Of a DNA stretch of 38,025 bases, positions 3,595 through 38,021 are shown piece after piece (position 1 is the first letter of the stretch; every line of letters begins with the position of its first letter). The stretch covers positions 1 to 38,025 of the forward strand of contig JAGMBW010000079.1 in the NCBI GenBank assembly GCA_023129535.1, in the 5' to 3' direction. The notes below the pieces were generated by a model, which saw only the letters and a program-made list of their open reading frames with translations, was not told the DNA's origin and ran no database searches. The translations under genes and the position numbers were made by a program. This DNA is from Desulfobacterales bacterium (lineage in GTDB: Bacteria; Desulfobacterota; Desulfobacteria; Desulfobacterales; C00003060).

Positions 3595-3640
3595 GTCGTA
3601 CCTCCATTTCGGGAACTGTTGTTCCTGCGAGTTTTACGTT

Positions 3641-3811
3641 AATGGAGTATTGGAGTAATGAAGTACCGGAGCAATGGGTATCTGAACAGGTATGCGGCGC
3701 AAAGCGTTAGACAAGATGTTTTTCGCCATACGCCTTGTGCCCTGAGCCATACGCCAGCTCTTCTGATCCAGCATTCCACTACTCCATTACTCCAATACTC
3801 CAACACTCCAA
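3641..3811. repeat. Nested arrays of 8-nt and 7-nt words
   Basis: Outer arms at about 3641-3680 and 3767-3811 consist of 8-nt words (ATTGGAGT, complementary ATACTCCA). Inside them, 3728-3757 carries 7-nt words (CATACGC, CTTGTGC) of the family seen at 6511-6580 and 25341-25410. The array fills the dnaX-ybaB gap on the minus strand. The outer family recurs at 8761-8851. Confidence 0.8.
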
Positions 3812-5459: not shown

Positions 5460-5515
5460 GATCCGTTGAGCCGGTTGTGCCCGTTGAGCCCGTTGAGCCG
5501 GTTAGACAGGTTAAG
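5460..5515. repeat. 9-nt word array, single arm
   Basis: Six consecutive 9-nt words of the type GTTGAGCCG or GTTGTGCCC lie immediately upstream of dnaX on the minus-strand transcript. No complementary arm is present, so this array cannot fold as the paired ones do. Confidence 0.75.
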
Positions 5516-6416: not shown

Positions 6417-6510
6417 TATACAGGGCACTTCCTATTTAGGGCTTGCGCAAGTTTTCTCTTTTTAGTATCGGTCAAAATTTGATTGGTGTGCGTTATTGCC
6501 AACTGGCGTA

Positions 6511-6580
6511 GGGCACAAGGCGTAAGGCGCAAGGCATAAGGCAAAAGGCCTTGCGCCCTTAGCCTTGCGCCTTGTGCCTT
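6511..6580. repeat. Paired-arm 7-nt word array
   Basis: Left words GCAAGGC and ATAAGGC meet right words CTTGCGC and CCTTAGC at 6549. The complement forms a hairpin of about 30 bp per arm in the leader of the DUF1015 gene. The same family recurs at 25341-25410. The rest of 6323-6602 holds the promoter and no other visible feature. Confidence 0.8.
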
Positions 6581-7934: not shown

Positions 7935-8036
7935 TTATTGTCGATTGAGGAATTGAGGAATTGAGGAATTCAGAAATTGATCGATATCCGTCTTTCAATA
8001 TTCAATCAACAATCGACAATCAACAATCAACTAGTG
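7935..8036. repeat. Paired-arm array of 8-nt and 7-nt words
   Basis: The left block repeats ATTGAGGA (8 nt). The right block repeats CAATCAA or CAATCGA (7 nt) and ends just before the methyltransferase ATG. Unequal periods in the two arms are unusual among the arrays here. Confidence 0.75.
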
Positions 8037-12377: not shown

Positions 12378-12656
12378 ATGCCCATTTACGAATATGAGTG
12401 CACAAAATGCGGCAGGATTCAAGAAACCTGGCAGAAATTCTCGGATAAACCTCTGGAGACCTGTGACTACTGTTCCGGGAGACTGCACAAACTCATTTCT
12501 CAATGCACCTTTCACCTCAAAGGAACGGGCTGGTATGCGACCGACTATGCTAATAAGTCCGGAGCTTCGTCGTCCGGAAGTTCGTCGCCGAAAAAAAAGG
12601 ACAAAAAAACAGATACAAAGGCTAAATCTTCTACTCCATCATCTGACGGCTTATGA
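12378..12656 (+). CDS. FmdB-type zinc ribbon protein
   Basis: 92-residue protein. The N-terminal MPIYEYECTKCG zinc ribbon has Cys8, Cys11, Cys29 and Cys32, the FmdB/CxxC family pattern (putative regulatory protein). The C-terminal half is low-complexity Ser/Lys. The true role is unknown; the family was named for a gene near formamidase or amide genes. It sits immediately upstream of groESL. The second paralogue is at 25065. Confidence 0.85.
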   Translation: MPIYEYECTKCGRIQETWQKFSDKPLETCDYCSGRLHKLISQCTFHLKGTGWYATDYANKSGASSSGSSSPKKKDKKTDTKAKSSTPSSDGL

Positions 12657-14888: not shown

Positions 14889-15003
14889 ATAGTTTCTTGA
14901 GTTTGTTGAGTTTGTTGTGTCTGTTGTGTCTGTTGTGTTAACCCAATAAACTCAATAGACCCAACGAACCCAATGAACGCAACAAACACAATGAACACAA
15001 CAC
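14889..15003. repeat. Paired-arm 9-nt word array
   Basis: Left words TTGAGTTTG and TTGTGTCTG, right words CCCAATGAA and CACAATGAA, all with strict 9-nt period. The same family recurs at 28850-28970 and 31365-31484. Confidence 0.85.
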
Positions 15004-17869: not shown

Positions 17870-17872
17870 TTG

Positions 17873-18015
17873 AACCCAAATTTCGCAAGCATCCTGGAAT
17901 GTCATTGCGAGGAGCGGAGCGACGTGGCAATCTCGTCACCTGGAGATTGCTTCGCTATCGCTCGCAATGACACGCCTGGTACCGATTTTCAGATAACACT
18001 TGCGAAATTCGGGTT
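17873..18015. mobile_element. 143-bp nested inverted-repeat (MITE-like) element
   Basis: Outer arms 17873-17889 and 17999-18015 are inverted 17-mers matching at 16 of 17 bases. Inside, TGTCATTGCGAG (17900-17911) is the exact reverse complement of 17961-17972, and GGCAATCTC (17927-17935) nearly complements 17943-17950. The inner module has the sequence of a widespread bacterial repeat (often translated as HCEERSDVA). It carries no gene. Four nt past the ileS stop. Confidence 0.75.
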
Positions 18016-18026
18016 GAATAGAGTTT

Positions 18027-18061
18027 TCAATCATCAATCATCAATCATCAATCGTCAGTCG
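18027..18061. repeat. 7-nt word array before lspA
   Basis: Words AATCATC repeated about four times, single arm, ending 7 nt before the lspA start. A related word array is at 36750-36782. Confidence 0.65.
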
Positions 18062-18067
18062 TGCTCT

Positions 18068-18553
18068 ATGGTGACGAACTACAGCAAATATATGACTTTC
18101 CTGCTCATTGCCGCCGGCATACTCCTGGTCGATCAGGTAACCAAGGGGCTTGTCATGCAAAGGTTTTCGGTTTGCGAAAATTTGGAGGTCATTCCGGGAT
18201 TTTTTAATCTGACCCATATTCGAAATACAGGTGGCGCATTTGGACTTCTCGCAGGGGAGGCATCCCGCTTACGAACGGGATTATTTCTTGGGATTTCCTT
18301 CGTGGTCCTGGGAGTCATTTTTTTTCTTTATGCGAGAATTCCTCCCGGAAAACCATGGCTGGATGCTTGTCTTGCCATGACCTTCGGAGGGGCCCTGGGC
18401 AATCTCGTCGACCGCCTTCGTTTCGGAGAGGTTGTCGATTTTCTCGATTTTCATATCGGGACGTTACACTGGCCCGCTTTCAACGTGGCCGACAGCGCCA
18501 TCTCCGTAAGCGTTGGGATATTCTGTTTTTACTTCGTGTTCAAGAAAGTATGA
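18068..18553 (+). CDS. lspA: Lipoprotein signal peptidase (signal peptidase II)
   Basis: 161-residue inner-membrane aspartyl protease that removes lipoprotein signal peptides after lipidation. Motifs seen: VDQVTKGLV, the NTGGAFGLL segment (53-61), catalytic Asp115 in GNLVDRL and Asp142 in NVADSAI. Four membrane segments are expected and visible. The start is placed at ATG 18068; the open frame extends upstream through the 143-bp element, which is not coding. lgt begins 3 nt after its stop, a logical lipoprotein-maturation pair. Confidence 0.95.
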   Translation: MVTNYSKYMTFLLIAAGILLVDQVTKGLVMQRFSVCENLEVIPGFFNLTHIRNTGGAFGLLAGEASRLRTGLFLGISFVVLGVIFFLYARIPPGKPWLDACLAMTFGGALGNLVDRLRFGEVVDFLDFHIGTLHWPAFNVADSAISVSVGIFCFYFVFKKV

Positions 18554-18556
18554 ATT

Positions 18557-19315
18557 ATGTATCCTGTCTTATTCCGCATAGGTCCCTTTACCCTTCACAC
18601 TTATGGCGTTTTTATAGCCATGGCCTTCCTGTCAGCCATAGCCCTGGCCCTTCGGGAGGCGCGAAGGGAGGGCGAAGATGCTAATAAGATATTGGACCTG
18701 TGTTTCTATGTGCTGGTTGCGGCCATTGTCGGCTCCCGGATATTGTATGTCCTGATCAATTGGGCTACCTTCAGGCATGATCTTTTCGAGATTGTCCGTA
18801 TATGGCACGGGGGACTGGTATTCTATGGCGGCTTCATTGGTGCCCTGGTAACAGCGCTGTGGTATATGAAGAGAAAAGGGTTGCCACTTTTGAGAACTGC
18901 CGACATCATGGCCCCTTCCATAGCATTTGGACTGTTTGTGGGCCGGATTGGTTGTTTTTTTGCCGGATGCTGATATGGTAAAACCTGCGACCTGCCGTGG
19001 GCAGTGATCTTCACACATCCTGAGTCTTTAGCGCCCAAGGGGGTGTCCGTTCATCCCACACAGCTTTATTCATCCCTGAATGGCCTTTTGATTTTTTTGG
19101 CGCTCGTGGGGCTCAGGCGCATCAAAGGGTTTGAGGGTCAAATATTTTGGAGCTTTGTCCTCCTGTATGGTGTCACGCGTTCCATCATAGAGCACTTTCG
19201 CGGGGATGACCGCGGCATGTTTCTTGAGAGCATGCTTTCTACTTCTCAACTGATTGGGCTGATCACGGCAGTGATTGCCATAACCATGATGATCATTTTG
19301 AGGCGGCGGAAGTGA
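18557..19315 (+). CDS. lgt: Prolipoprotein diacylglyceryl transferase, probable selenoprotein
   Basis: 252-residue inner-membrane enzyme that transfers diacylglycerol to the lipobox Cys. Reading through one in-frame TGA (18971-18973, codon 139) gives GRIGCFFAGC-U-YGKTCDLPW, where relatives have a Cys-Cys pair. On both sides the family is intact: FRIGPFTLHTYG, HGGLVFYGGFIG, then HPTQLYSS and HFRGDDRG. Length is normal and no other stop or frameshift exists. A SECIS-like hairpin follows the TGA. Selenocysteine is therefore likely; a sequencing error of Cys TGC/TGT remains the alternative. Genes for Sec insertion are not in the window. Confidence 0.88.
18992..19004 (+). promoter_or_regulatory. 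SECIS-like hairpin in lgt
   Basis: CTGCC and GGCAG form a 5-bp stem with loop GTG. Two further base pairs (GA with TC) extend it below a small internal loop. The loop starts 24 nt after the TGA and begins G-U, as the bacterial SECIS model requires (loop 16-37 nt away, G among the first two bases). Confidence 0.55.
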
Positions 19316-19322
19316 AGAATGA

Positions 19323-19423
19323 CCGGATCCCGGATGCCTGATGCAGGATGCCAGTCCAAGATATCAGGCATCCGGCATCTGGCATCCGGCATCCGGGATC
19401 AGGGATCTGGCATCCGGCATCTG
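19323..19423. repeat. Paired-arm 7-nt word array
   Basis: Left words CCGGATG and CCTGATG, right words GGCATCC, GGCATCT and GGGATCA. It separates lgt from holA, ending just before the holA start. The same word family is at 1239-1262. Confidence 0.8.
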
Positions 19424-19427
19424 ACAA

Positions 19428-20792
19428 ATGACAAAAGAGATTAGTTATAAGGACTTGGCCAACCTCTTGGCCGAGATCAAAGGGGGTAGGATCTGTCCGG
19501 TTTATCTTTTATACGGGGATGAATTCCTACATAAATCAGCCTTCAAGTCTCTCCTGAATGCCCTCGTTCCGCCACATCATCAAAACCTCAACTATGAACC
19601 AATCGATGGTGAGAGCGAAAACGTCTACGAGATCATTGAACGCCTGAATACATTTCCGATGATTCCATCCGCCAAGGTGATTGCGGTTCATGGTACAAGA
19701 ATATTCTACTCTGCCGTAGCTGCTGATGATCTCCTCCATAAATCAAAAGAGGCATTTGAAAGACAAGACCTCAAAGAATCTGCTCGCTATCTCCTCCACA
19801 TGCTAAGTGTGGCTGGCATGTCACTCGATGATGTTAAGGATGGAGGCTGGACACGAGCCTCGGACAAGAAGCTGACAGAGAGCTTAACTAAAGATGCTGC
19901 CGAGGCATGGTTGGATCAGGTCGTCGCCTATTGCGTGCAGGAAAACATGACAGTGCCGGCCCATCAGGATGATGCTGACGTGTTGAACGATGCCATTCTC
20001 ACAGGGTATCCGGAGACAAACCATTTGGTCCTTACCACCGATCTTGTGGACAAGCGCCGGAAGCTGTATAAAACGATCAGTAAGATAGGGGCGGTCGTTG
20101 ACTGCTCTGTGGCAAAAGGTGAAAGGACAGCAGACAAGCGCCAGCGGCAAGAGGCATTGAAAGGTCAAATGAAAGAGACCTTGAGAAAGTTCGGAAAAAC
20201 CATGGCACCTGGCGGGTTCGAGGCACTGTATGAGAAGATCGGTCCTGACATGCGCAGTTTCAGCAATGAAGTGGAAAAGTTGATCTCCTTTGTCGGGGAC
20301 CGGAAAGAGATTTTACCTTCTGACGTTGAAACAGTCTCAAAGAGAACCAGGCAGGACCCTATCTACGAGATGACCAATGCGATCGTTCAAAAGGACACAC
20401 GCGGGGCTTTGTTCTTTTTAGACAGCGTATTGAAGAACAACTTCCATCCGCTTCAGGCGCTTTCATCTGCGGCCAATCAGATACGAAAGCTGATGTTAGC
20501 CAAAGATTTCATCCGCAACAGGTGTCGTAAGACCTGGAGGCAGGATCTAAGCTATCAGGCTTTCCAGAAAATGATCATGCCGGAGATTAAAAAGCGCGAA
20601 CCAGACTTCCTGACCAGCAATGCACACCCCTATTCCATTTATATGACCCTCAAGCAATCAGACAACTATACCCTTGAAGGGCTCATCAGGGCACTGGAGG
20701 TCCTGTTTGATACTGACATTCGACTGAAGCGTTCCGGCCAGGATGCCAAGATAGTGCTGGAACATGCAATCCTGCGCATCTGCGAGGCCTGA
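19428..20792 (+). CDS. holA: DNA polymerase III subunit delta
   Basis: 454-residue clamp-loader subunit that opens the beta clamp. The N-terminal PVYLLYGDEFL motif (24-34), NHLVLTTD and the C-terminal PIYEMTNAI/LKQSDNYTLEGL helices are typical. It is about 110 residues longer than usual HolA. The extra material lies at about residues 95-195, between VIAVHGTRIF and the NHLVLTTD strand, and is helical and charged. The reading frame is clean, so this is an insertion rather than a fusion artefact. Confidence 0.88.
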   Translation: MTKEISYKDLANLLAEIKGGRICPVYLLYGDEFLHKSAFKSLLNALVPPHHQNLNYEPIDGESENVYEIIERLNTFPMIPSAKVIAVHGTRIFYSAVAADDLLHKSKEAFERQDLKESARYLLHMLSVAGMSLDDVKDGGWTRASDKKLTESLTKDAAEAWLDQVVAYCVQENMTVPAHQDDADVLNDAILTGYPETNHLVLTTDLVDKRRKLYKTISKIGAVVDCSVAKGERTADKRQRQEALKGQMKETLRKFGKTMAPGGFEALYEKIGPDMRSFSNEVEKLISFVGDRKEILPSDVETVSKRTRQDPIYEMTNAIVQKDTRGALFFLDSVLKNNFHPLQALSSAANQIRKLMLAKDFIRNRCRKTWRQDLSYQAFQKMIMPEIKKREPDFLTSNAHPYSIYMTLKQSDNYTLEGLIRALEVLFDTDIRLKRSGQDAKIVLEHAILRICEA

Positions 20793-20812: not shown

Positions 20813-23800
20813 TTGGAATTCATTGCTGATCTTCACATCCATTCCTATCTTTCACGGGCAACCGCCAGGAACCTTAATCTGGAACACCTGAATCTGTGGG
20901 CCCAGTTGAAAGGAATTACGGTTCTTGGCACAGGTGATTTTACCCACCCCCAGTGGTTTTCAGAGCTGTCACAGAAGCTGGAACCGGCCGAAGACTCCCT
21001 TTTCAAACTCAAGCCAGCGTTTGCATCGGAAACAGCCCACCTGGTTCCACCCTCCTGCACGGGCCCTGTCCGCTTCATGCTCAGCGTCGAGATTAGCAGC
21101 ATCTACAAAAAGGATGGGAAGACCCGCAAAGTCCACAATGTGATCCTGGCACCCACACTTGAGGTGGCTGAGAAAATCAACCACAGGCTTGGCCGGATAG
21201 GCAACATCGCCTCTGATGGGAGACCGATCCTCGGGCTCGATTGCAAGACACTCCTTCAAATTGTCCTTGAAACCTCAGAAGATGCGACCCTTATTCCGGC
21301 CCACATCTGGACTCCCTGGTTCTCCGTACTTGGCTCTAAATCAGGCTTCGACTCCCTTGAAGAATGTTTCGAAGATTTCACCCCCCATATCTTTGCCGTA
21401 GAGACAGGCCTTTCCTCTGACCCTGCCATGAACTGGCGGGTCTCGTCATTAGATGGCCTCACCCTGGTCTCAAATTCGGATGCCCATTCTCCGGCGAATT
21501 TAGGAAGGGAGGCAAACCTTTTTGATACAGACCTTTCGTATTTTGCGATAAAAGATGCACTGAAAACCGGTGACCCAGATCGTTTTCTGGGAACCCTTGA
21601 ATACTTTGCCGAGGAGGGGAAATATCATTTTGACGGCCACCGCAAATGTGGTGTCAGGCTTTCGCCTGCGGAAACAAAGCGTTACAAGGGACTGTGCCCG
21701 GTTTGTGGCAGGCCGCTCACCATTGGGGTCATGTACCGGGTACAAGAACTGGCCGACCGCAAAGCTGGCACAAAGCCAAAAGGGGCTCATCCATATACAA
21801 ATCTTCTTCCCCTGACCGATATATTATCACAGGTCTTTCAGGTCGGGCCAAAGAGCAAGAAGGTGACCGAGGCGTACGGCGCACTTCTTGAGAGGCTCGG
21901 CCCGGAATTTGAAATCCTCAGAAAGGCACCCCTGGATGCCCTTGACCGCCACGGACCACCCCTGCTCGCCGAGGCGATCAGCAGGATGCGAAAAAACCAG
22001 GTCCATATTGCCCCGGGATATGACGGGGAGTTTGGCACCATCTCACTTTTTGAAGAGCAGGAACGTAGCCAACTCCTCGGGCAAAAGAGTCTGTTTAACG
22101 GTTTGCCCACCCAGGCGTACCCCAATACTGTTGAGTCAAGGGCTTCGTTTGAAAAAAATCCCCCTAAATCCCCCTTTAGAAAAGGGGGACTTTCAATCCG
22201 CCCGCGGCCAAGCCGCTTTCCTAAAAGGGAACTTTCAAAAGCTGCACACTTTTCCAAAGGAGGACTCTCAAAAGCTCCCCCCTTTTTCAAAGGGGGGCTG
22301 GGGGGGGATTTTGCTCTGCCCGCCAACCTGAACCAGGCCCAGCAGGAGGCAGTGCAACACATTGGGGGACCGCTCTTGATTGTTGCAGGCCCCGGGACCG
22401 GCAAAACCTTCACGCTTGCGCATCGCATTGCTCATTTGCTTATAAAAAAGGTTGCCCGGCCTGAACAGATACTTGCTGTCACCTTTACAAACAAGGCCGC
22501 CCAGGAGATGGCCGAGCGGTTTGGGAAGACCCTTGGGGATTGGGACGCGGTGAAGAGGATCACTATCAAGACATTTCATGCCCTGTGTCTTGATATCCTC
22601 CGCCTTGAGGCCGGTGCGCTTAGAACAAAACAAACGGTATCCATATTAAATGAAGCCGACCGCATCCGGTTTGTGAAGGGAGCCATCCCCGGCGCGTATG
22701 ATGACCTTATTGTATCAAGATTTGACCCGGATGAAATTTCAGACCTCATTTGCAGGGTGAAACAGCTCTTGCTCTTGCCGGAGGACGATCTGTCCGAGCA
22801 TGTCCCGCCCCCCTTGTTGGATCGGTTTGCCTCCATTTATAAGGCATATCAGGAAATCCTTGATCAGAACCGTCTTCTTGACTTTGATGACCTGATTTTC
22901 AAAACAGTCAAGCTTTTTGAGACCAACCAGGCAATCCTGGAAAAATACCGGGAAAAATTTCGTTTTATATCCGTGGACGAATATCAGGACATCAATTATG
23001 CCCAGTACCGGCTTATCCGCCTCCTTTCCCCGCAAGGCCATGACATCTGTGTCATCGGTGACCCAGACCAGGCCATATACGGATTCAGGGGTGCAGACGT
23101 TAGATATTTTCATCGGTTTTGCGAAGATTATCCCTACGCGAAAAGAATTCACCTGGAGCAGAACTACCGCTCCACAGAAACAATTCTGCGGGCATCCGGG
23201 CAGCTCATCGGTGTTGACGACACAAAGAGCCCACAAAAAACTATCTGGTCGGGCATTCACGGCGCCAGGACCCTGACGGTAAACGAGCTTCCCACGGAAA
23301 GGGCAGAGGCCGAGTGCATAGTCAAGATCATTGAGCAGGAGGTTGGCGGGATCAGCCACTTTTCCGTGGACAGCGGGCGGATTGACGGGTTTAGCCACAA
23401 AAAGGAACGCAGTTTTTCGGATTTTGCTGTGCTTTACCGGATCAAGGAACAGGGAAAGGCCCTGGAGGAGGCATTTGCACGGTCTGGTATCCCCTTTCAG
23501 ATGCTTGGGAAGGAAAAGCTTCAAAACTGTAAGGGAATCATGGAGCTTATTGCCTACCTGAAGACGGGCTGGTCCCTTGCGTGGGATCTTGATGTAGAAC
23601 GGATTCTGAACTTCCCTTCACGGGGGATCGGCCATGGTACTATTCATGCGTTAAAGCAATGGTCTAAGACAAAAGGGTGTCCACTTATGACGGCTCTCGG
23701 ACACTCAGACCGGATCTCCGGCCTCAAACCACACCTGAGGAGAAAACTCAGGATCTTTTTAAAGGATTTGAATCAACTGAAAAGTCTTCTCAATGGCATG

Positions 23801-24334
23801 AGCGTGTATGAGCAAATTCACCGTATTCTGGATCAATTCGGTATCATGGATGCCATGTGCGGTAACAAAACCTTTAATGAGGACCTGACAGCCTTTTTGG
23901 ATCTGTCCAGATCCTTTGAGGATCGGGGCGTGGATTTCCTGGCCCACCTGGCCCTTGAGAGGGCACAGGACCGCTATGATCCTGTTGCAGAAAAGGTTTC
24001 CCTGATGACCATGCACGCCGCCAAAGGGCTTGAGTTTCCCGTGGTTTTCATCGCCGGTTGTGAAGACGGGCTGATCCCTTACAGGAGAAAACGCGGTGAA
24101 CAGGGAGATCTCCTCGAAGAAAGAAGGCTGTTTTATGTGGCCTTAACCCGTGCGCAGGAAAAGATCTATCTGACCCATGCCAAAAGGAGGCTATTGTTTG
24201 GGCAGAGAACTTTGCAGCATCCCTCGCCTTTTCTTGAGGCCGTTGAAGAAAATCTAAAAGAACACAGGAAACCTTTTTTACCAAGACAAGCAGTCAAGAA
24301 AAATGATCCACAACTGAGCCTTTTTGAGTTATAG
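20813..24334 (+). CDS. PHP domain - zinc ribbon - UvrD/Rep helicase fusion
   Basis: 1173-residue multidomain protein. The N-terminal PHP-type phosphoesterase (1-about 290) has FIADLHIHS with metal His8/His10, GTGDFTHP and NSDAHS. A zinc ribbon with CPVCG follows (about 305). After a linker (448-500) comes superfamily 1A helicase: GPGTGKT Walker A (525-531), VDEYQD motif II, QNYRSTE, GLEFPVVF, and YVALTRAQ motif VI. PHP-helicase fusions are known from this lineage. The combination suggests DNA end processing plus unwinding. TTG start with AAAGG 11 nt upstream. The linker is made of repeat DNA. Confidence 0.9.
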   Translation: MEFIADLHIHSYLSRATARNLNLEHLNLWAQLKGITVLGTGDFTHPQWFSELSQKLEPAEDSLFKLKPAFASETAHLVPPSCTGPVRFMLSVEISSIYKKDGKTRKVHNVILAPTLEVAEKINHRLGRIGNIASDGRPILGLDCKTLLQIVLETSEDATLIPAHIWTPWFSVLGSKSGFDSLEECFEDFTPHIFAVETGLSSDPAMNWRVSSLDGLTLVSNSDAHSPANLGREANLFDTDLSYFAIKDALKTGDPDRFLGTLEYFAEEGKYHFDGHRKCGVRLSPAETKRYKGLCPVCGRPLTIGVMYRVQELADRKAGTKPKGAHPYTNLLPLTDILSQVFQVGPKSKKVTEAYGALLERLGPEFEILRKAPLDALDRHGPPLLAEAISRMRKNQVHIAPGYDGEFGTISLFEEQERSQLLGQKSLFNGLPTQAYPNTVESRASFEKNPPKSPFRKGGLSIRPRPSRFPKRELSKAAHFSKGGLSKAPPFFKGGLGGDFALPANLNQAQQEAVQHIGGPLLIVAGPGTGKTFTLAHRIAHLLIKKVARPEQILAVTFTNKAAQEMAERFGKTLGDWDAVKRITIKTFHALCLDILRLEAGALRTKQTVSILNEADRIRFVKGAIPGAYDDLIVSRFDPDEISDLICRVKQLLLLPEDDLSEHVPPPLLDRFASIYKAYQEILDQNRLLDFDDLIFKTVKLFETNQAILEKYREKFRFISVDEYQDINYAQYRLIRLLSPQGHDICVIGDPDQAIYGFRGADVRYFHRFCEDYPYAKRIHLEQNYRSTETILRASGQLIGVDDTKSPQKTIWSGIHGARTLTVNELPTERAEAECIVKIIEQEVGGISHFSVDSGRIDGFSHKKERSFSDFAVLYRIKEQGKALEEAFARSGIPFQMLGKEKLQNCKGIMELIAYLKTGWSLAWDLDVERILNFPSRGIGHGTIHALKQWSKTKGCPLMTALGHSDRISGLKPHLRRKLRIFLKDLNQLKSLLNGMSVYEQIHRILDQFGIMDAMCGNKTFNEDLTAFLDLSRSFEDRGVDFLAHLALERAQDRYDPVAEKVSLMTMHAAKGLEFPVVFIAGCEDGLIPYRRKRGEQGDLLEERRLFYVALTRAQEKIYLTHAKRRLLFGQRTLQHPSPFLEAVEENLKEHRKPFLPRQAVKKNDPQLSLFEL
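22154..22314. repeat. In-frame inverted repeat element inside the helicase linker
   Basis: The C-run and G-run blocks (CCCCCTTT...AAAGGGGG type) repeat as several inverted pairs and encode NPPKSPFRKGG-like peptides (PPKSPF, SKGGL, PFFKGGLGG). This resembles a common dispersed G/C-run repeat that sits in intergenic DNA in other genomes. Here it lies inside an open frame with no loss of phase. Confidence 0.8.
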
Positions 24335-24351: not shown

Positions 24352-24500
24352 CGATTTAGCGCGATCTTCACTTCGTGTCGAAATGCGGATAGCGGATTGA
24401 AAGCGCAGAGAGCAAAGGGCAGAGAGCATAGAGCAAAGAAACCCTATGCTCTATGCGCCATGCGCCATGCGGAGCGAAGCTCCAATGACCAATGACAGAC
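24352..24500. repeat. Composite word array, element A copy 1
   Basis: Blocks in order: GCGGAT words, GAAAGCGC, AGAGAGC words, AAGAAAC, CTATGCG words, GGAGCGAAGCTCC palindrome, AATGACC words. The same order occurs reversed at 36596-36745. It fills the gap before the gene at 24502. Confidence 0.8.
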
Positions 24501-24974: not shown

Positions 24975-25045
24975 TATAACCTTTGAACCGTGAACCGTGA
25001 ACCATGAACCGTGAACCATGAACCGTGAACCTTGAACCTTGAAGC
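24975..25045. repeat. 7-nt word array, single arm
   Basis: Words GAACCGT, GAACCAT and GAACCTT in tandem, about nine copies. The complementary words (ACGGTTC) occur at 37968-38021. Confidence 0.8.
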
Positions 25046-25064
25046 AAATGAAAGGACGCCCGCC

Positions 25065-25313
25065 ATGCCTATATTTGAATTTCGCTGTCTGAAATGCAAT
25101 GAAGTCTTTGAGATGCTCATGTTGAGTACTGACGAAGAGATGGAGATGAGGTGTCCCCACTGTGGCTCCGGGGACTTTGAGCGTGTATTGAGCACCACCA
25201 CCTATACGGCAGGCTTTAGCCGGGGAGAATCTCGACGCCCCTCTGTTGAAACGAGAGAATGCGCTTCTGGAACCTGTACTACCTGGAATGTTCCTGGTTA
25301 CTCCAAGAGCTAA
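25065..25313 (+). CDS. FmdB-type zinc ribbon protein, second copy
   Basis: 82-residue protein. MPIFEFRCLKC and RCPHCG carry Cys8, 11, 30 and 33, forming the zinc ribbon. VLSTTTYTAGFSR is typical of the family. The tail has a further Cys pair (CASGTC). The start is at ATG 25065, 8 nt after AAAGGA; an upstream ATG would start inside a word array. Paralogue of the gene at 12378, function unknown. Confidence 0.85.
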   Translation: MPIFEFRCLKCNEVFEMLMLSTDEEMEMRCPHCGSGDFERVLSTTTYTAGFSRGESRRPSVETRECASGTCTTWNVPGYSKS

Positions 25314-28849: not shown

Positions 28850-28970
28850 TTGTGTCTATCGTGTCTGTTGGGTCTGTTGTGTCAACTCAATAGACCCAAT
28901 GAACCCAATGGACCCAATGGACCCAATGAACCCAATGGACTCAATGAACCCAATGGACTCAATGGACTCA
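28850..28970. repeat. Paired-arm 9-nt word array
   Basis: Words CCCAATGGA, CTCAATGAA and their kin, about ten in phase, with a short complementary left arm (TTGTGTCTG, TTGGGTCTG). It reaches into the aminotransferase 3' end and supplies its last codons and TGA. Confidence 0.85.
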
Positions 28971-30116
28971 ACAAACGTTCAACTTGACAAGGTATCGCTC
29001 GATACGATCCATTGCCTCTGCAATGTTTTCCAGGGTATTTGCATAGGAAAACCGTAGATAGCCCTCGGCATTGCTCCCAAAATCGATTCCGGGGGTTACC
29101 CCCACATGGGCATTGTCAAGGATATCGAAAGCCAGTTTGTAGGAATCCTCTGAAAACCTCTTGGCATTGGCCAGGACGTAAAAGGCACCCGTGGGCTCCA
29201 CGGTGATGCCAAATCCCATATCCTTGAGGCGCTTGATCATAAACCGGCGGCGCTCATCATAAATCGCCCTCATCTTTGCTACGTCTGCAGCGGCTTCTTC
29301 AAGGGCCGCAATACCGGCCCATTGCACCATGGCATTGGCTGAAATGAAGAAATTCTGTTGAACCTTCTGGATGGCCCGCATAAAAGGCCTTGGCGCAATG
29401 AGATAGCCCAACCGCCACCCGGTCATGGCATAGACCTTGGAAAACCCGTTGAGGACAAAGGCCTTATCCGTATACTCCAGGATGGAATGTTCTTCGCCCT
29501 CGTAAACCAGGCCATGGTATATTTCGTCAGAAATAATGTATGGAGATAACCGGGCAATGGCCTCCATACGTTCGTGGCCAAGGAGGTTTCCTGTGGGATT
29601 GGATGGAGAGTTGATAAAAATGGCCTTGGTCCCGTCATCCATTTTTTCCTGGATCGCTTCTGGCAGGTACTGGAACCCGTCATCTTCGAAAACCGGAATC
29701 GTGACCGGCTCGCCACCTACGAACCTGATAAAGTTGGGATAGCATGGGTAATGGGGATCTGAAATGATCACCTTGTCTCCTGGATCCAGAAGGGCTGAAA
29801 AGAGCATGAACATGGCAGGTGAGGTGCCCGAAGTCACAATCACCTGGTCCGGTTGAATAAGCACACCGTAGCGTTCGTGATAGTGCCGACAGATTGCCTT
29901 GCGAAGCTCTATTAGTCCAAGACTGTGGGTATAATGGGTGTGTCCAGCATTCAGGGCGCGAATGGCAGCATCCTTGATACAGGCGGGGGTATCAAAGTCA
30001 GGCTCCCCTATCTCCAAATGGATAATATGGATGCCTGCTCGTTCCATACCGTGGGCCTTTTCCAGGACATCCATAACAATGAAGGGTTTGATTTCTTGCG
30101 TACGCCTGGAAATCAT
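28968..30116 (-). CDS. PLP-dependent class I/II aminotransferase
   Basis: 382-residue enzyme of fold type [10 protein letters not shown] (169-177), SDEIYHGL (196-203) and the PLP-binding Lys227 in [13 protein letters not shown] are clear, and the C-terminal RFSYAN Arg would bind substrate carboxylate. It is broadly aspartate- or aromatic-like; substrate cannot be told from sequence. Its start overlaps the hisG stop by 4 nt (ATGA), suggesting a histidine-linked role such as histidinol-phosphate transamination, but it lacks distinctive HisC motifs I can point to. Confidence 0.85.
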
Positions 30117-31364: not shown

Positions 31365-31484
31365 TTTTGAGTTTTTTGAGTTTGTTGGGTTCATTGGGTT
31401 TGTTGAGTCAAACTCATAATACAAAAAGCACAACTAACACAATAACACAATAGACACAACAGACACAACAGACACAATAAACCC
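31365..31484. repeat. Paired-arm 9-nt word array between divergent genes
   Basis: Left words TTGAGTTTG and TTGGGTTCA, right words CACAACAGA and CACAATAGA. It separates divergent hisI and PBP1A, so both promoters must overlap or flank it. Same family as 14889-15003. Confidence 0.85.
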
Positions 31485-34732: not shown

Positions 34733-34858
34733 GTGCCTAAAGTGAACTAAAGTGAACTAAAGTGCCTAAAGTTAAAAGAACAAAACAAATATTAAAAAAG
34801 TTTCTTTGAGTCCTCAACTTTAGCTCACTTTAGACACTTTAGGCACTTTAGTTCACTT
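34733..34858. repeat. Paired-arm 9/10-nt word array
   Basis: Left words GTGAACTAAA (10) and GTGCCTAAA (9). Right words CTTTAGTTCA and CTTTAGGCA, arranged as their mirror complement. About 40 nt separates the arms. It lies between recN and the CBS gene. Confidence 0.85.
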
Positions 34859-36589: not shown

Positions 36590-36782
36590 GATTGTTAATT
36601 GAAGATTGTCGATTGTCAATTGTCAATTGTCATTGGTCATTGCTCACTGGTCATTGGAGCTTCGCTCCGCATAGCGCATAGCGTTTCTTTGCTCTATTCT
36701 CTTTGCGCTTTCAATCCGCAATCCGCATTCCGCATTCCGAAATCGAAGGTCAATCATCAATCCCTCAATTCCTCAATTCCCC
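36590..36782. repeat. Composite word array, element A copy 2
   Basis: Reverse orientation copy of the array at 24352-24500: AATTGAC words, AATGACC words, GGAGCGAAGCTCC, GCTATGC words, AGAGAGC-like words, GCGGATT words. A CCTCAATT array continues to 36782 and supplies the stop of the cytochrome gene. Confidence 0.8.
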
Positions 36783-37967: not shown

Positions 37968-38021
37968 CTCACGGTTCACAGTTCACGGTTCAACGGTTCA
38001 ACGGTTCACGGTTTTAACCTC
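37968..38021. repeat. 7/8-nt word array at the window edge
   Basis: Words CACGGTT, CACAGTT and CAACGGTT in tandem. They complement the GAACCGT words at 24975-25045. A second arm may lie beyond the window. Confidence 0.7.

Follow-up and report, generated by a model that had tools for sequence, protein, structure and literature searches.

The lgt gene in the window, by which we mean the whole 38,025-nucleotide stretch of DNA analysed here, in all likelihood encodes a selenoprotein form of prolipoprotein diacylglyceryl transferase (Lgt), with insertion of selenocysteine (Sec) predicted at a single in-frame TGA. A preliminary description of the DNA, made from its letters, had proposed selenocysteine at this codon, and the proposal is now supported by the Sec machinery of the genome, by an invariant Cys at the corresponding position of homologues and by the recurrence of the TGA in other genomes. 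The features around which the argument is built are these.

18557..19315, + strand: lgt, prolipoprotein diacylglyceryl transferase, 252 residues if the TGA at codon 139 is Sec
18941..18979, + strand: Lgt signature motif GRIGCFFAGCUYG, residues 129-141, placed by alignment to 5AZB and matching E. coli G142-G154
18971..18973, + strand: in-frame TGA at codon 139, the proposed Sec codon, likewise TGA in three other genomes (G207, G771 and G526)
18992..19004, + strand: SECIS-like hairpin core CUGCC-GUG-GGCAG, whose loop follows the TGA by 23 nt and starts with G
17870..18553, + strand: lspA, signal peptidase II, directly upstream of lgt, named from its sequence, an ORF from a TTG
19428..20792, + strand: putative holA-like ORF (DNA polymerase III delta subunit), downstream of lgt, named from its sequence

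When the frame from 18557 to 19315 on the + strand was read again, the TGA at codon 139 was its sole interruption, just as first described, and it is located at the second Cys of the Cys-Cys pair, in GRIGCFFAGC(C)YG, where that description had put it. The read-through product scores 159.8 bits against the NCBIfam model TIGR00544 (curated cut-off 118.9) and aligns over residues 3-251 with the E. coli Lgt of 5AZB at an E-value of 2e-28. Its AlphaFold model has a mean pLDDT of 87.4, and the sole significant match of this model in the PDB is 5azb (E 3.4e-12, TM 0.83). Judged by homology and predicted structure, this protein is an Lgt of full length with the Lgt fold, and diacylglyceryl transfer is its predicted activity. 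The gene closes with a TGA of its own at 19313-19315, so TGA also functions as a stop here, and for this reason a global reassignment of the codon was ruled out. A related explanation, in which TGA has been reassigned to an ordinary amino acid or a near-cognate tRNA carries translation past it without selenium, would account for the frame staying open beyond the codon; it is nonetheless exceedingly unlikely in view of the TGA that ends the same gene, the ordinary appearance of the window's ORFs under table 11, and a Sec machinery that includes a TGA-bearing SelD.

That machinery was found in the genome of the window (G000), which is a draft of 230 contigs. Both selA and selB are present, and selD carries an in-frame TGA of its own in AGSG*ASK; SelD is a known selenoprotein family. 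No complete tRNA-Sec was found in the draft, where a strict pattern matched nothing and the search gave other tRNAs below the cut-off. When the tRNA-Sec region of a congener (G264) was mapped onto the draft, it identified a contig (C134) that opens with the 5' 22 nt of a tRNA-Sec gene followed by conserved flank; the full tRNA-Sec is thus missing from the assembly because selC is cut at the end of this contig. Intact tRNA-Sec genes occur in congeners, G207 among them. The four sel genes to which the preliminary description had pointed are therefore all represented, selA, selB and selD by genes and selC by its contig-cut 5' 22 nt, and an absence of Sec machinery, one of the findings it had named as speaking against selenocysteine, is not the case.

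The conservation of Cys at codon 139 was surveyed with some care for how the homologues were chosen. Since the first set of homologues had been picked in part by the motif CFFAGCCY, the survey was redone as an unbiased search of whole genomes, 291 from the order. In all the CC-type homologues inspected, including those from the motif-unbiased search, codon 139 is TGC or TGT, and the column of this residue is invariant in our alignment (A1), as had been anticipated for Lgt homologues. Among the Lgt matches listed in the order-wide search, an in-frame stop occurs in two only, the window gene and that of the congener G207 (73% identity); both stops are TGA at codon 139, so the expectation of a TGA in close relatives was borne out too, and there is no TAA or TAG among the matches listed. 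With about 72 single-base changes able to make a stop in the window lgt, the placement of both stops at the very same codon goes beyond chance.

Purifying selection acts on the part of lgt that lies 3' of the TGA. The dN/dS values of this part are 0.12-0.13 between the window gene and its Cys-bearing sisters and 0.09-0.18 for G207, and pairs of Cys-Cys genes give 0.14-0.16. Decay of the gene is disfavoured because the downstream values resemble those of the Cys-Cys pairs, with the reservation that a very recent stop would look identical. This reservation belongs to the explanation in which the window lgt is a young pseudogene made by a recent nonsense mutation and tolerated thanks to a second, canonical Lgt. 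The TGA did arise after the split from the Cys-bearing sisters (dS about 0.5), a very recent stop leaves no trace of decay, the hairpin of the window gene is borderline, and the genome does hold a second Lgt, lacking the CC motif (L001, contig C135:18657-19388). The loss of the window copy would be tolerable because of this canonical second Lgt, which lacks the Cys cluster. Two of the congeners (G293 and G130, as L159 and L160) also have such a second Lgt; it was not found in most congeners, and is seen as a piece beside a scaffold gap in G771. No Lgt besides the Sec form was found in G207, in a genome that is 89% complete. This last result counts against a pseudogene, as do the Sec machinery of the window genome, the restriction to TGA among the Lgt matches listed for the order, and the identical-codon TGA in three other lineages whose frames are otherwise intact. 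We consider the pseudogene very unlikely.

The recurrence of the TGA was followed beyond the order. When 389 genomes of the class were scanned for the TGA form of the motif, only the window and G207 came up, the reversed control pattern giving one match; a phylum scan, over 395 genomes, picked out the window together with the Lgts of G771 and G526, and here the control pattern matched nothing. These two genomes belong to two other families; their lgt genes have the TGA at the same codon as the window, are otherwise intact, and lie behind lspA and ileS. Four changes on the tree are required to account for the four TGA genes, and the constraint of a single clade is rejected (p-AU 0.0088), a result to be read with caution because L179 and L180 are long branches. 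In a tree built without L179 and L180, the window and G207 fall in different subclades among rows with Cys. A Sec-type Lgt seems to be present in four distinct bacterial lineages. Viral contigs match the TGA motif at 35 places, which are put down to chance because none is near an Lgt; a protein search of these contigs found no relative. The recurrence also bears on a one-base sequencing or assembly error, which might be suspected in a 230-contig draft whose close sisters have TGC. The same TGA was, however, assembled independently in G207, G771 and G526, and the remainder of the window frame is clean, which leaves an error of this kind with hardly any probability.

Sec machinery was looked for in these two genomes of other families as well. 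G771, a single scaffold of 2.07 Mb with gaps, has selA, selB, a TGA-bearing selD of which a gap conceals the 3' part, and part of a tRNA-Sec. The 3' part of this tRNA, with anticodon TCA, was found by pattern; ARAGORN missed the gene because its 5' half falls in a run of Ns. No sel gene and no tRNA-Sec were found in the roughly 400 kb of G526 that were read.

A bacterial selenocysteine codon is expected to be followed by a SECIS hairpin. According to the rules in a 2026 review, the loop has 3-9 nt with a G in its first two positions, the stem has 4-16 bp, the element lies 16-37 nt after the UGA, and the energy is -7.5 kcal/mol or lower (PMC13188914). A hairpin does follow the TGA of the window gene at the expected spacing, as the preliminary description had suggested one should look for; its energy is borderline, the best constrained value being -7.2 kcal/mol, slightly short of the -7.5 rule (PMC13188914). 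G207 shares the core of the window hairpin, on a longer, bulged stem with -8.6 kcal/mol, and the hairpins of G771 (-13.3 kcal/mol) and G526 (-12.2 kcal/mol) rank first and second of 94. All four TGA genes show the bSECIS geometry, and the hairpins of G207, G771 and G526 also reach the energy in the rule. As a group, the four TGA-gene hairpins are stronger than those in 90 Cys homologues (Mann-Whitney p 0.0014, in rows that are related to one another). We treat this comparison as supporting evidence only, because the rows are related, coding constraint is common to them, and 12 of the 90 Cys homologues also reach -7.5 kcal/mol or better.

In E. coli Lgt the G142-G154 motif covers the last part of TM4 and the loop after it, on the periplasmic side; a role in recognising phosphatidylglycerol has been proposed for it, with E151 binding at a first site and R143 at a second (PMC4728403). 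In the alignment to E. coli Lgt, C133 of the window protein corresponds to N146, C138 to E151 and Sec139 to L152; the essential R143 and G154 of E. coli are matched by R130 and G141 (5AZB alignment), the region of R208, invariant in our alignment, aligns with the likewise essential R239, and the HGGL-aligned region is retained. E. coli N146 is not kept, its place being taken by Cys133. N146 is essential in E. coli; the two studies differ on E151A, which still allowed growth in one of them and was inactive in the other (PMC4728403, PMC13251419). In distant Lgts both N146 and E151 are replaced by Cys, so Cys133 is characteristic of a subfamily and does not define Lgts at large; for the Lgt of Leptospira interrogans, a Cys pair in the signature motif was suggested to form a disulfide (PMC13251419).

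On these grounds a mechanism can be proposed. SelB with Sec-tRNA-Sec would decode UGA-139 as selenocysteine, aided by the downstream hairpin, and the outcome would be a full-length enzyme of 252 residues with the signature motif GRIGCFFAGCUYG. Such an enzyme should still transfer the diacylglyceryl group of phosphatidylglycerol onto lipoprotein precursors, given R130 in the place of the essential R143 and the retained HGGL-aligned region. TM4 ends at residue 136 in the predicted model, and Sec139 would be placed at the periplasmic end of this helix, beside C138 and near C133, where it would most likely take the place of one of the two thiols in a structural or redox pair. We infer a Cys/Sec pair that holds or controls the site from its place in the motif, the Cys replacements in distant Lgts and the disulfide suggested for Leptospira. 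The most likely role of Sec139 would be a selenenylsulfide with C133 or C138, or else an oxidation-resistant selenol; metal binding by the Cys/Sec cluster is possible.

The surroundings of lgt deserve a brief account. The gene row of the window, named from reading the sequences, is ileS, lspA, lgt and the holA-like ORF, and the order lspA-lgt is also seen at the G771 and G526 loci. The true start of lspA is likely an ATG near 18068. The sequence ahead of it, 17870-18067, is readable as CHCEERSDVAI, a peptide that we take to be typical of dispersed bacterial repeat elements. Many of the intergenic gaps contain short tandem arrays with units of 7, 8 or 9 bases, the unit differing from gap to gap, and few such arrays are found in coding DNA.

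3640-3682, 3767-3811, 5463-5503, 6505-6580, 7944-8031, 14891-15002, 18027-18062 and 19363-19423: tandem arrays of the window
24400-24439, 24984-25043, 28888-28971, 31367-31480, 34737-34858, 36590-36744 and 37969-38013: further tandem arrays of the window

Comparable arrays are found upstream of the lgt of G207 (L119) and beside the tRNA-Sec on contig C134, and similar heptamer arrays (STRR) occur in cyanobacteria. A helicase-like ORF (20813-24334) contains an FKGGLGG-like peptide repeat at 22156-22294 that has the look of an in-frame repeat-element insertion. There are also two small FmdB-type zinc-ribbon ORFs in the window (12378-12656 and 25032-25313) with CxxC motifs, and both have Cys codons there; an FmdB-family selenoprotein with UxxU is listed in the review (PMC13188914).

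It remains to place the Sec-type Lgt among known proteins. To the canonical Lgt (E. coli, 5AZB/5AZC; TIGR00544) it is alike in full-length homology, fold, the essential arginine of the motif and the lspA neighbour, but the E. coli enzyme has L152, E151 and N146 where the window has Sec139, C138 and C133, and is without Sec or TGA. The CFFAGCCYG-type Lgts of Desulfobacterota, Nitrospinota and Nitrospirota are direct orthologues, up to 91% identical, and differ in having Cys (TGC/TGT) at position 139 where the window has TGA. Selenoproteins with a Cys-Sec pair are known in HgcA, SaoL, SaoC and a CopZ-like 2Fe-2S protein (Table 1, PMC13188914). They share with the window Lgt a vicinal CU motif derived by Cys-to-Sec exchange, with UGA and SECIS, but have other folds and include, by their names in that table, corrinoid, organometal and iron-sulfur proteins (PMC13188914), whereas Lgt is a membrane lipid transferase. 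Lgt is not among the 119 prokaryotic selenoprotein families of the main table of the 2026 review (PMC13188914), no Sec-specific Lgt model is among the NCBIfam matches, and among the main texts of the open-access papers searched, none links Lgt with selenocysteine. What we describe is very probably a genuine selenoprotein form of Lgt, and one that seems not to have been catalogued, with both the insertion and the role of Sec as predictions. The fullest version of this reading joins several claims, namely that Lgt constitutes a new selenoprotein family with several origins in the phylum, that selenium sits at the phosphatidylglycerol-binding motif, that C133, C138 and U139 form a redox switch or metal site, and that maturation is selenium-dependent where there is no other Lgt; that every part of it holds is a tentative and rather doubtful proposition.

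Redox functions are ascribed to most of the selenoproteins characterised so far, and we know of no redox step in Lgt. If the reading of the TGA as Sec is true, this widespread subfamily of Lgt has in its Cys cluster a reactive role for which no explanation has been given, and one that could be tested by exchange of Cys, Sec and Ser. The lgt genes of such genomes are likely annotated as broken or truncated.
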